From Deltaproteobacteria bacterium (GTDB taxonomy: Bacteria > Myxococcota_A > Polyangia > Polyangiales > JADJMO01): DNA of 39,720 bases. The position numbers and the translations under genes were made by a program. The notes below the pieces were generated by a model, which searched no databases, was not told where the DNA came from, and saw nothing but the letters and a program-made list of their open reading frames with translations. Every line of letters starts with the position of its first letter. The stretch's first letter is position 1. The stretch lies in assembly GCA_025363655.1 (NCBI GenBank), contig JANYDK010000148.1:1-39720 (forward strand), written 5' to 3'. This document shows, piece after piece, positions 711 through 4,831 of this stretch.

Positions 711-947
711 CCGGTTTCGCGCTGTGGATGACCCGGATTGGGCGTGATTTCGCGCACGGGAGCCAGGCCACGCCGAAGCGACGAGGCGCGTTTTGCCGCA
801 GCCCGCAGCCTGGACGAGGGCCGCAACCCGCGGCCCAGCCAGGACATTCCCGGCTCCGGCCGACCGCGAGAGATTCCGTGCTCTCGGCCCGCTTGCCTGA
901 GGGTCGAGGTGGTCGTCCGCCCTTTTCTTGGCCCGTGTCCAGGCGTG

Positions 948-1071: not shown

Positions 1072-2316
1072 ATGGCTGATGGACGCGCGATTTGCGAGAG
1101 CTGCAGCGTCTGCGCGAAGTCGTTCGAGGTGCAGTTGCGCTGGCAGATGGAGGAGCGCGAGGGCGGCTTCTCGTTCTTCTGCTCCCGCGGCTGCTACGAA
1201 ACGAGCGCGGTCGGAGAGGGATCGAACAACTGCGATGCGTGCGGCAAGCGCTTTACCGTGGAGCTGGTCTCCCAGGTGGTCGCGCTGAAGGTCGCCGGAA
1301 AGGCCGAGCGTCGCTACGCCTGCGGGCTCTCCTGCCGCGAGCAGCTGGTCCGCGAGGCAGACGGGCTCCGGCTCGGAGACCTCGAAGGTCAGACCGCCGT
1401 CGTGCGGGGCGGCACGCGGGTCTCTCCTGCGCCTACGCCGTCGTCGAAGGTGGCCGAGGCTCCTCCGCGCGCCAGCACCGATCACGTCCCTCGCCGGATC
1501 GCGATCTTCAACCACAAGGGCGGCACCGGGAAGACGACGACCGCGGTCAGCGTCGCAGCGGCCTTGGCGGCGCGTGGCAAGCGCGTGCTCCTCGTCGACA
1601 CCGATGCGCAAGGCAACGTCGCCGCGTCGCTGGGCGTCCGCACCGACAAGTCGCTCTATCACGTGGTGGTGATGGGCCTCTCGCCGGCCGAAGCGGCGAC
1701 GCCGGTTCGGACCAACCTCGACGTCCTCGGCTCCAACGAGACCCTCGCGGCCGCCGAGCTCTACCTCGCCGGACGTCGCGAACGTGATCGCGTCCTTCGC
1801 GATCGCCTCTCGTCGACGAGTCAGCTCTACGACGTAGTCATCCTCGACTGCAGCCCGTCGCTCTCGCTGATGAACCAGAACGCGCTGGTGTTCGCCGACG
1901 CGATCTTCGTGCCGGTGGCCTGCGACTACCTCTCGCTGGTCGGCGTGCGGCAGGTGCTGAAGACGGTGAAGAACGTCAACCAGCTGCTCCATCATCCCGT
2001 GCGCATCGGCGGCGTCATCCCGACGATGTACGACGCGCGCGCGAAGATTTGTCAGGACGCCCTCGCCACGCTCAAGGAGCACTTCGGCGAGCGTTGCCTG
2101 CCGCCGATTCGTGCGACGGCGAAGCTGAAGGAAGCTCCTGCGCACCAGAAGACGATTTTCGAGTGGGCCGAGGGCTCCAACGCCGCGCGCGACTACGACG
2201 ACGTGGTCGACGTCATCTGGAACGGCGTCTCGAGCGAGCGGAGCCAGAAGAAGAAGAGCGAGAGCGAAGGCGCCTCGTTCGAGGGAATCGGAAAGATCGA
2301 AGAGGCAGTCGCGTGA
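1072..2316 (+). CDS. ParA/Soj-family ATPase with two N-terminal Cys4 zinc-ribbon-like modules
   Basis: The product is a 414-residue protein. The ATG at 1072 is preceded by GAGGAG (about 1059-1064), so the longer in-frame extension from 928 is rejected. The C-terminal two thirds is a ParA ATPase. It has a deviant Walker A KGGTGKTT (about residues 149-156), a switch region LLVDTDAQGN, Walker B-like VVILDCSPS, and the C-terminal GVIPTMYDARAK and EAPAHQKTIFEW segments typical of Soj. Residues 1-90 are unusual: two repeats of C-x2-C...C-x3-C (Cys 11/14/37/41 and 54/57/84/88) with similar spacing, probably binding one metal ion each. A Pro/Ala linker joins them to the ATPase. The stop overlaps GTG at 2313, so the downstream RHH gene is co-transcribed. 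Cargo or DNA segregation is inferred; this may be an orphan ParA rather than the chromosomal Soj. Confidence 0.9.
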   Translation: MADGRAICESCSVCAKSFEVQLRWQMEEREGGFSFFCSRGCYETSAVGEGSNNCDACGKRFTVELVSQVVALKVAGKAERRYACGLSCREQLVREADGLRLGDLEGQTAVVRGGTRVSPAPTPSSKVAEAPPRASTDHVPRRIAIFNHKGGTGKTTTAVSVAAALAARGKRVLLVDTDAQGNVAASLGVRTDKSLYHVVVMGLSPAEAATPVRTNLDVLGSNETLAAAELYLAGRRERDRVLRDRLSSTSQLYDVVILDCSPSLSLMNQNALVFADAIFVPVACDYLSLVGVRQVLKTVKNVNQLLHHPVRIGGVIPTMYDARAKICQDALATLKEHFGERCLPPIRATAKLKEAPAHQKTIFEWAEGSNAARDYDDVVDVIWNGVSSERSQKKKSESEGASFEGIGKIEEAVA

Positions 2317-2357
2317 GCCGCGACGACGATGGCGCCACGGCGCGAAAGGGGACGACG

Positions 2358-2666
2358 ATGAGCGGCGCGACGAGAGACCTCTTGGACGGCGACGAAGTGG
2401 CCGAGGTCCTCTCGGGGACCTTCTACGCGCGCGGAAAGTCTGGTGCCCGCCCGCAGCTGCACGCGCTCCCTTCGGGCGCGAAGGCCCCGGAGAAGCCTGC
2501 CCACTACAAGGTAATCTGCATTTCGCTCTACAACGAGGACCTGCAGCAGCTCGATCGCATGGTCGACGAGTTGAAGGAGCGCGGCTTCACCAAGGCGAAC
2601 CGCAGCGCGCTCATCCGCTTCGCGCTCGAGCAGGTCGATCTGACGAAGGCGAAGAAGGGCCTCTAG
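2358..2666 (+). CDS. Ribbon-helix-helix protein, likely partner of the ParA
   Basis: The product is 102 residues from ATG 2358, which has AAAGGGG about 8 nt upstream. An in-frame GTG at 2313 overlapping the parA stop (GTGA) would add 15 residues and cannot be excluded. Residues about 1-45 are polar and probably flexible. Residues about 50-95 fit the MetJ/Arc/CopG fold: a short strand (KVICISLYN), helix (DLQQLDRMVDELKERG), turn, then helix (NRSALIRFALEQVDL) carrying the N/T-R-S-A-L-I-R-F signature. ParA-type operons often encode such a small DNA-binding partner instead of ParB (ParF/ParG type). The dyads at 948-989 are candidate binding sites. Role as ParA partner and autorepressor is inferred from position. 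Confidence 0.82.
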   Translation: MSGATRDLLDGDEVAEVLSGTFYARGKSGARPQLHALPSGAKAPEKPAHYKVICISLYNEDLQQLDRMVDELKERGFTKANRSALIRFALEQVDLTKAKKGL

Positions 2667-2694: not shown

Positions 2695-3966
2695 TCAGGT
2701 TCTTCGGAGAAGTCGGACGAGCGCGCGGCTGCCCGCTTCGGCGAGCGCAAAGGCGCGTCGTCCGCATTCTTCGAGATCTGCCGAGCCGGAAGCGGCGAGC
2801 ACCATCGCGGGCTTTCCCGCCACGAGCACCGTCTGCAAGAGCACCGCGGCGTTGGGCGCGCCGCGCAGCTCGAGGATGTCGATCAGCTCGGCGTCGAGCG
2901 CGAAGTCGAGGAGACCGACGCGCCGCCCGGATTCCTGCTCGATGCACGCGGCGAGGGCGCCGATCAGCGGAAGCTTTCGCCCATCCACGCGGCTTGGAGA
3001 GAGCTGCCCCGCCGCACCGACGGCGAGCATCTCGCCCCGCCGCACACCGAGCACGACGACGACGTTCGCCGCCGTAGCCAGGCCTTGCGCGAGCGCGTCG
3101 ACGAGCGGTGATCGCTGCATGACGCGTTCGATCGCCGTGAGGTGCGGCGCGAGCGGCGGGTAGGGGGGCGCCCTCGGTGCCGGAGCGCCTGGCAACGTGG
3201 ACGGCGGCCGCGCAGGGATGGCCGAGCCCTCGCGGCGCTCGTCTCGCAACGAGGGCCCGAAATCGAGCACCATCGCGATCGCCGTCGGCCGCACCACCCG
3301 CGGCGTCTCCGGTGGCTGCGTGAGCTCGGGAGTGTCGGGCGGGGTTGGACGCAGCAGGAGGGTCGGCTCCGCGGAGAAAGGTGCCAGCGAAGCCCGGGCA
3401 CGCCGCACGAGCGGCATCGCGCTCTCTTCCAAAGGGTTCAAGGGGTTCAAGGGGTTCGACGGCGGCGGGTGAGACTCGTTGGGAACCGTTCGTGGAGGCA
3501 GACTCGCAGCGGGTCCCGGCCGAGAGCTCGCGAGACGAAACGTGCGATCGGTGAGCGGCTGGCTCGCGGCACCAAGCGCATCGAGCGCCTTCTCGATGGC
3601 GTCGAGCGAAGCCCGCACGAGCCGCACCGGCGCGCGCAGATGATGAGACACTTCTTGCGCGGGAAAAGCGTCTTGTTCGTCGACGACCGCGAGATCGACC
3701 ACGCCGGTGCGGGGGTCTTCGCCGGTGGGCACCGCCGAAAGCCAGAGCAGGAGACCGGGAGGCAAGCGAGCGGCGATGTCGGCGTGCGGAACGAGCGGCA
3801 CGACGCCGATGTTGAGGAGCTGCCTGGCGGTGGCGGAGGCGTCGGCGAGAGCGCGAAGAAACGGCTTGCGCCGACGCATCGTCTCGCAGACTGCGTGACG
3901 AAGCTCGCCAGCTTGGATGGCGCTCGAGAGCACGAGGCGTCGGCCGAGCTCGAACGTCACGCCCAC
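2695..3966 (-). CDS. GspE-N/MshEN-like domain protein with Pro-rich linker and C-terminal GAF-like domain
   Basis: The product is about 423 residues if translation starts at GTG 3966 (GTG 3960 is also possible; the longer frame to 4092 would overlap the divergent cpsB start). Residues about 4-135 (ELGRRLVLSSAIQAGELRHA; VVDLAVVDEQDAFPAQEV) resemble the N-terminal domain of GspE/PilB ATPases, which in some proteins binds cyclic-di-GMP. No ATPase domain follows. A Pro-rich middle contains the 9-bp repeat product NPLNPLNPLE. The C-terminal ~150 residues look like an alpha/beta GAF-type sensor domain. Stand-alone proteins of this sort are common in myxobacteria; function is unknown. It converges on the RHH gene with a 28-nt gap. 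Confidence 0.75.
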   Translation of the reverse strand: MGVTFELGRRLVLSSAIQAGELRHAVCETMRRRKPFLRALADASATARQLLNIGVVPLVPHADIAARLPPGLLLWLSAVPTGEDPRTGVVDLAVVDEQDAFPAQEVSHHLRAPVRLVRASLDAIEKALDALGAASQPLTDRTFRLASSRPGPAASLPPRTVPNESHPPPSNPLNPLNPLEESAMPLVRRARASLAPFSAEPTLLLRPTPPDTPELTQPPETPRVVRPTAIAMVLDFGPSLRDERREGSAIPARPPSTLPGAPAPRAPPYPPLAPHLTAIERVMQRSPLVDALAQGLATAANVVVVLGVRRGEMLAVGAAGQLSPSRVDGRKLPLIGALAACIEQESGRRVGLLDFALDAELIDILELRGAPNAAVLLQTVLVAGKPAMVLAASGSADLEECGRRAFALAEAGSRALVRLLRRT

Positions 3967-4090
3967 CGAGGGTAGCGGATTCGCGGCGCAGTGTCCCCGC
4001 AAGCGCCGGGAGCGGGCGAGTGAATCTTTCGGCTCTGTGGTACACCTCACCCCCCTCGAGGCCTTTCGGACGACGTCTGGCGGCAAATTC

Positions 4091-4831
4091 ATGCGCGGTT
4101 ACACCGACCTCCACTGCCACTACATCGCCGGCGTCGACGACGGCGTGCGTTCGGAAGACGACGGTGTGGCCCTCCTCCGCGCGCTCCATGCGGTCGGTTT
4201 CGACCACGTCGTGGCGACGCCGCACATGCGACCGGCGATGTTCGACAACCACGCTGCGCCGTTGCGCGAGGCCTATGCCCAGCTCCGCCTTCGCCTCGAT
4301 CGCGAGGCTGACCTCCCCGAGACGAGCCTGGCCGCCGAGCACTTCTTCGACGACGTCGTCTTCGAGCGACTCCTCCGCGGTCAGGGGCTGCCGTACACGG
4401 CGGGGCGCTCCGTGCTCATCGAGCTCGCCACCGAGCAGATGCCGGTCGCGCTTCCGGCGCGGCTCTTCGACCTGCGCATGAAACGTCTCCGTCCGGTGAT
4501 CGCCCACCCCGAGCGCTACACGGTGTTCCATCGCGACCCGACGAAACAAGCCGATGCACTGCGAAAAGCGGGCGCAGTGCTCCTCCTCGACGTCTGCGCG
4601 CTGGTCGGAAAATACGGCGAACGTGCGCTGCGCGCGGCCGAGCAGCTGGTCGAGAACGACGGCTACTACGCTGCCTGCAGCGACGCTCACCGCATCGAGG
4701 ACGCCGAGATCACCGGCCGCGCCATCGACCGTCTGCACGCGCTCGTCGGTCGCGAGGCTGGCGAGGTCCTTCTGCGCGACCGCCCCAAAGAGATTCTCCA
4801 AGGTCGGATCTTCGACGACCGCTTCGAGTAG
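4091..4831 (+). CDS. CpsB/YwqE-type PHP-family protein tyrosine phosphatase
   Basis: The product is 246 residues, close to the family's usual ~250. Metal-ligand motifs of the PHP fold are all present: DLHCHYIAGVDDG at the N-terminus, VATPHM, an Asp/Glu-rich FFDDVVFE segment, PVIAHPERY and CSDAHR near the C-terminus. CpsB/Wzb-like PHP phosphatases dephosphorylate bacterial tyrosine kinases that control capsule or exopolysaccharide chain length. The next gene, 26 nt downstream, makes a nucleotide sugar acid, which fits. An extended -10-like TGTGGTACA (about 4036-4044) lies ~45 nt upstream. No BY-kinase gene is visible in the window. Confidence 0.9.
   Translation: MRGYTDLHCHYIAGVDDGVRSEDDGVALLRALHAVGFDHVVATPHMRPAMFDNHAAPLREAYAQLRLRLDREADLPETSLAAEHFFDDVVFERLLRGQGLPYTAGRSVLIELATEQMPVALPARLFDLRMKRLRPVIAHPERYTVFHRDPTKQADALRKAGAVLLLDVCALVGKYGERALRAAEQLVENDGYYAACSDAHRIEDAEITGRAIDRLHALVGREAGEVLLRDRPKEILQGRIFDDRFE

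Follow-up and report, generated by a model that had tools for sequence, protein, structure and literature searches.

A conserved ParA/Soj-type ATPase with two N-terminal zinc-finger-like modules, often encoded next to a predicted ribbon-helix-helix protein

ATPases of the ParA/MinD family usually take their cargo via a separate adaptor. Type Ia ParA proteins, 300-450 aa in length, repress their own operon through an HTH at the N-terminus (PMC9178275). The partition protein ParG consists of a ribbon-helix-helix (RHH) core and an N-terminal tail that stimulates ParF, and has its operator upstream of its own genes (PMC7308502); more broadly, the partners of ParA/MinD ATPases commonly act via an N-terminal peptide (PMC10241942).

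The locus described here lies in a stretch of 39,720 nt from a Deltaproteobacteria bacterium (contig JANYDK010000148.1), the whole of which is called the window. A 414-aa open reading frame (1072..2316, + strand) encodes a ParA/Soj-type ATPase with an N-terminal double zinc-finger-like domain, hereafter finger-ParA, and an AGGAG-type ribosome site, read by eye, is found 7 nt 5' of its ATG at 1072. The best Pfam match of this frame is AAA_31 (residues 141-307, E 1.2e-47), and residues 1-120 gave no confident match in the same scan. A preliminary description of this DNA had placed two Cys4 units before the ATPase core. They are real, the pattern CxxC...CxxxC occurring twice within residues 11-88: module 1 (1102..1194, + strand) has the spacing C11-x2-C14-x22-C37-x3-C41 and module 2 (1231..1335, + strand) the spacing C54-x2-C57-x26-C84-x3-C88, while Cys8 of the window protein is extra and not conserved. 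A linker (1384..1482, + strand), modelled with a pLDDT of about 37-54 over most of its length, leads from the modules to the ATPase.

Conservation was followed in an order-level set of 63 loci (the window, L007-L062 and L064-L069), about 58 of them distinct because some contigs appear in two collections; residue-by-residue conservation and identities refer to a 55-row alignment. One locus (L063, Sorangium So0157-2) was left out because its N-terminal frame is broken; its fingers and ATPase are in different frames, through either a sequencing error or a real break. Of 56 order-level genomes, 44, the window's own among them, gave a strong orthologue (>310 bits) in a query search, and the named loci with an orthologue include Sorangium, Minicystis, Polyangium and Labilithrix. 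Many matches in this 56-genome search cover the ATPase only, yet all 29 loci that were fetched (L007-L035) carry an in-frame Cys-rich front end. Seven of the eight module cysteines (C11, C14, C37, C41, C54, C57 and C84) are present in 63/63 loci, which leaves module 1 with all four invariant, and the eighth, C88, is present in 60/63, the three exceptions all being His in the 55-row alignment. The modules are open in frame in the 63 loci, so the ATPase does not start downstream of them. They are also more conserved than the linker, with a mean pairwise identity of 0.52 and 0.43 against 0.27 (0.69 for the ATPase). The observation of two Cys4 modules ahead of a ParA/Soj-type ATPase is thus right, and it is not the quirk of one genome.

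The two modules are homologous to each other (hhalign probability 98.3, E 1.4e-14) and hence form a tandem repeat; plain BLASTP of window module 1 against window module 2 found no alignment. AlphaFold2 predicts two units (pLDDT about 73-95), in each of which a helix comes after paired strands and has the CxxxC at its start; the front end is accordingly modelled as two treble-clef-like units. This fold call rests on predicted secondary structure and sequence profiles, as the fold search with the ATPase model took residues 134-388 only. Against the PDB, the front-end profile matched the ribosomal protein eL24 at E 7e-4, with the C2H2 protein ZBTB20 just above it (6e-4). Most module sequences match MYM/FCS in Pfam (11/19 at E ≤ 0.1, best 1.1e-8). 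In a distant orthologue (L136) this family passes the Pfam cut-off (24.2 vs 22.4), as does DUF2256 (25.9 vs 25), and the window copy, at 10.9 bits, stays below the MYM/FCS cut-off of 22.4. The ligand pattern CxxC...CSxxC of MYM/FCS treble-clef fingers is present in the modules, which we read as MYM/FCS-like putative zinc fingers. Fingers of this family are mostly known as protein-binding.

The cysteines could instead hold a redox centre or an Fe-S cluster that gates the ATPase, since Cys4 sites can hold iron and ParA relatives such as NifH are generally known to carry clusters. We consider such a sensor very unlikely, given the treble-clef-like model, the MYM and eL24 matches and the replacement of Cys by His at the eighth putative ligand in three orthologues, which is the exchange expected of a zinc ligand. 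As a main reading, the redox centre was rejected on account of this exchange together with the finger matches. The preliminary description had offered DNA, protein or a redox metal as what the modules might bind; of this, a conserved metal-finger pair of MYM/FCS-like, treble-clef type was supported, and the exchange favours zinc over a redox centre. As also suggested there, the modules may give the ATPase a new cargo.

The ATPase core (1492..2217, + strand) was said to be intact, and this was borne out: it holds the deviant Walker A motif KGGTGKT at 149-155, together with D176/D178, D259, R323, R347 and K351, and its active-site residues are present throughout the alignment. K149, K154, D176, D178, Q180 and D259, the residues by which a ParA/MinD (Walker-type) ATPase is recognised, occur in 55/55 rows, R323 and R347 are invariant (55/55), and a K or R occupies position 351 in every one of the 55. 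A PDB sequence search gave Soj as the closest solved relative of the core (E 4e-44); this is probably Thermus Soj, the entry being named 'segregation protein'. Structure comparison to ParA and Soj chains gave Z of about 36 and an rmsd of 1.7-1.9 over 242-248 residues. In the alignment to Soj, the DGR motif of Soj lines up with R323 and its NVR motif with K351; these are the regions that presumably hold its DNA-binding arginines.

The ATPase gene is followed by a gene for a 102-aa protein (2358..2666, + strand). An alternative GTG start at 2313 overlaps the ParA stop, but ATG 2358 is the likelier start, since in orthologues the protein starts immediately ahead of the conserved tail motif. An RHH-type gene follows finger-ParA in 63/63 order-level loci, in line with the earlier claim that the partner is an RHH protein and not ParB. 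The conserved core of the partner, YKVICIS...DLxxLDxxV...TKANRSALIRxAL, is RHH-like, its model contains two helices with pLDDT >90, and in second-look fold alignments the RHH chains TraM-N and PutA rank first (Z about 5 over 42-48 residues). Pfam named no family for the partner, and neither a PDB sequence search nor Foldseek at E ≤ 0.001 returned an RHH relative of it. From the second-look alignments, the motif and the predicted helices, we assign the partner to the RHH proteins as a model-based call. Its conserved tail peptide (L9-Y23, LDGDEVAEVLSGTFY; 2382..2426, + strand) is proposed as a ParA-docking motif. This peptide is acidic and hydrophobic and follows the pattern E-V-x-x-V-L-x-x-x-F-Y, with E13 in 55, V14 in 60, V17 in 58, L18 in 62, F22 in 59 and Y23 in 56 of the 63 loci. 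A ParG-like arginine finger was sought in the tail, and no Arg or Lys was found among the conserved columns of the 63 loci; the linker of the partner is mostly net basic, with the basic residues at shifting places.

The operon is preceded by a TTGGCC element (928..933, + strand) that lies 144 nt from the start of finger-ParA. It is the first block of TTGGCC-N13-YRTG; in the window only this block is clear and the second is not evident. TTGGCC occurs in 34/55 upstream regions (shuffle mean 5.7, max 11) and TTGGCC-N13-[CTG][AG]TG in 23/55 (shuffle mean 0.1, max 2), and of the spacings from 6 to 24, that of 13 nt is conspicuous, the next highest reaching 5/55. A scan of 11 genomes for the strict form of the two-block element found nine occurrences, with none for the reversed control: four before the finger-ParA gene, four as one repeated sequence in genome G027 and one elsewhere in genome G322. 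The copies in G027 are identical, lie near four contig ends (L163, L166, L168 and L169) and are probably a repeated element. The two-block element thus appears largely operon-specific in the genomes scanned, and it may be a promoter or an RHH operator. Both genes are kept in several branches that are without it; the presence of the proteins therefore does not hinge on the element. A centromere-like repeat array was looked for upstream in the window and not found; only short two-copy repeats are present there.

These data bear on the possibility that the system is a transcription regulator first, in which fingers and RHH protein would work at their own promoter and a small number of others, with the ATPase serving as a nucleotide switch, as in type Ia ParA autorepressors or FleN, and not as a positioning motor. 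The fingers do occupy the place of the operon-repressing N-terminal HTH of type Ia ParA (PMC9178275). An upstream element that is strongly conserved and rare elsewhere in the genomes scanned would also fit. Its loss from branches that retain the gene pair, and the mostly protein-binding record of MYM/FCS fingers, point the other way, and we regard a regulator as unlikely, though the most credible of the rivals.

In the same genome, a canonical ParA gene is followed by a ParB gene (L002), in which ParB_N, HTH_ParB and ParB_C all score over their cut-offs. Finger-ParA is therefore a second system and not the ATPase of the chromosome's ParABS. The adjacent ParB CTPase that marks chromosomal ParABS is absent from finger-ParA, whose neighbour is the RHH gene in every order-level locus. 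When 53 loci were compared, 23 had the same chromosomal gene as upstream neighbour. In the range L041-L069, a gene that looks like purH by sequence lies upstream on the same strand in 23 loci, and a Lon-like gene in nine. Such purH-like and Lon-like neighbours speak for a stable chromosomal setting. On the other side of the operon, the minus strand of the window holds a 465-aa frame (2695-4092) with short NPLNPLNPL repeats and no confident Pfam match, and a relative of it adjoins finger-ParA in 4/4 close relatives compared.

A ParA gene followed by an RHH gene is the layout of plasmid partition loci (ParF-ParG, delta-omega), and the operon might thus be a partition cassette that stems from a plasmid, a phage or an integrated element. 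We consider this extremely unlikely. The finger region is without a match in 72,556 plasmid records, and 50,697 phage records give only two weak matches to HNH endonucleases; a plasmid or phage origin was rejected on these searches. The shared upstream neighbour, the presence of strong matches in most order-level genomes and a tree with one clade, in which most families group together, also argue against it. In this tree, a quick version computed from the ATPase cores with a warning of long branches and with rows compared only as Cys or no Cys, a single clade (SH-aLRT 97) unites every row with Cys and also includes L063.

The Cys module fused to ParA had been suggested as worth seeking across the phylum, and the front-end finger profile indeed matches in 96/282 phylum genomes at E ≤ 0.001, some of the matches being weak and to other proteins. 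One that was inspected is a P-type ATPase (L150:936-3320) with a single N-terminal CxxC...CSxxC finger, and other weak matches, in frames of about 660-870 aa, may be of the same kind. In 198 genomes from the phylum of a Desulfobacterales genome, the finger module was not found at E ≤ 1e-5, an empty answer that alone shows nothing. Among 19 ParA loci outside the order (L131-L149), 15 have two modules and four (L143-L146) have one. Judged by its sequences, finger-ParA is a family of the whole phylum and not a stray variant.

The RHH gene is less constant at this distance. It adjoins finger-ParA in 8/19 of the out-of-order loci, with one further doubtful case (L138), and a genome-wide search with the RHH profile found none in 17/35 genomes, including 10/10 of family f26 and 3/3 of family f52, both of which keep finger-ParA. 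Because the RHH protein is absent from some lineages, the fingers cannot serve it alone; its absence speaks against it as the sole partner, and it is either not universal or replaced there. In families f26, f34 and f54, all eight loci that were fetched (L131, L132, L134, L136, L137, L142, L144 and L147) have a gene for a membrane protein of about 480-510 aa after finger-ParA or its RHH gene. By eye, the protein has an N-terminal hydrophobic segment and a second one near its C-terminus, and no Pfam family was found in the three copies scanned. It is a possible alternative partner.

Taken together, we favour, with a probability of roughly 0.6, a second, chromosomal ParA-type positioning system made up of a nucleoid-bound ATPase, an RHH adaptor or activator and a finger docking module. 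The conserved basic positions suggest that ATP-bound dimers of the Soj-like core would bind the nucleoid non-specifically. The RHH dimer would be a ParB/ParG-like adaptor on a specific DNA site, probably at least its own promoter region, and its conserved N-terminal tail peptide, from its anatomy, would trigger ATP hydrolysis. The MYM/FCS-like finger pair on its flexible linker would be a compact docking module that ties the ATPase to a partner, the pole or cargo. Sequence conservation, predicted folds, the gene pairing and the single clade support this positioning system, and everything dynamic in it is inferred. More tentatively, and with odds short of even, the finger pair might be a cargo- or pole-docking domain on ParA itself; specificity would then lie partly on the motor, the positioning system would be old in the phylum and run beside ParABS, and the RHH adaptor would be exchangeable, for example for the membrane protein next door in f26, f34 and f54.

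Finger-ParA is real and conserved, and as far as the open-licence literature shows it is not described: among the best-ranked matches in that literature, no description of a zinc-finger ParA was found. A ParA family that spans the phylum, brings its own zinc-finger-like module, has an RHH partner and works alongside canonical ParABS would illustrate a different route by which cargo can be assigned. An orthologue is present in bacteria that have been cultured and sequenced (Sorangium cellulosum, Minicystis rosea and Polyangium), which makes the question accessible to tagging and deletion.

Compared with known systems, finger-ParA shares with Soj/ParA of chromosomal ParABS the ATPase core, the deviant Walker A and conserved basic positions on the face presumed to bind DNA, but differs in its zinc-finger-like front end of about 100 residues, its RHH partner and the lack of a ParB neighbour; the Walker-B loop reads DCSPSLSLMNQNAL in the window finger-ParA and DCPPSLGLLTVNAL in the same genome's own ParA. 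Type Ia ParA proteins (P1, F SopA) are likewise about 400 aa long with an extra N-terminal domain, which in them is an HTH and here is modelled as two zinc-finger-like Cys4 units of strand-strand-helix. As in ParF-ParG (TP228) and delta-omega, the gene after that of the ParA-type ATPase encodes a small RHH protein that has an N-terminal tail. Unlike these type Ib systems, whose ATPase is small and without an extra N-terminal domain, finger-ParA is chromosomal, has a core closest to Soj and carries a front-end domain of about 100 residues; the tail of its partner is acidic-hydrophobic with no conserved arginine, and no repeat array is seen. In lacking a conserved Arg or Lys, this tail also departs from the basic or arginine-finger peptides described elsewhere (PMC10241942, PMC7308502). 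The modules resemble the treble-clef fingers of MYM/FCS (zf-FCS) and eL24 in their CxxC...CSxxC spacing, their treble-clef-like model and weak-to-good profile matches; unlike those fingers, they form a tandem pair joined to a ParA ATPase, with the window copy below the Pfam cut-off.
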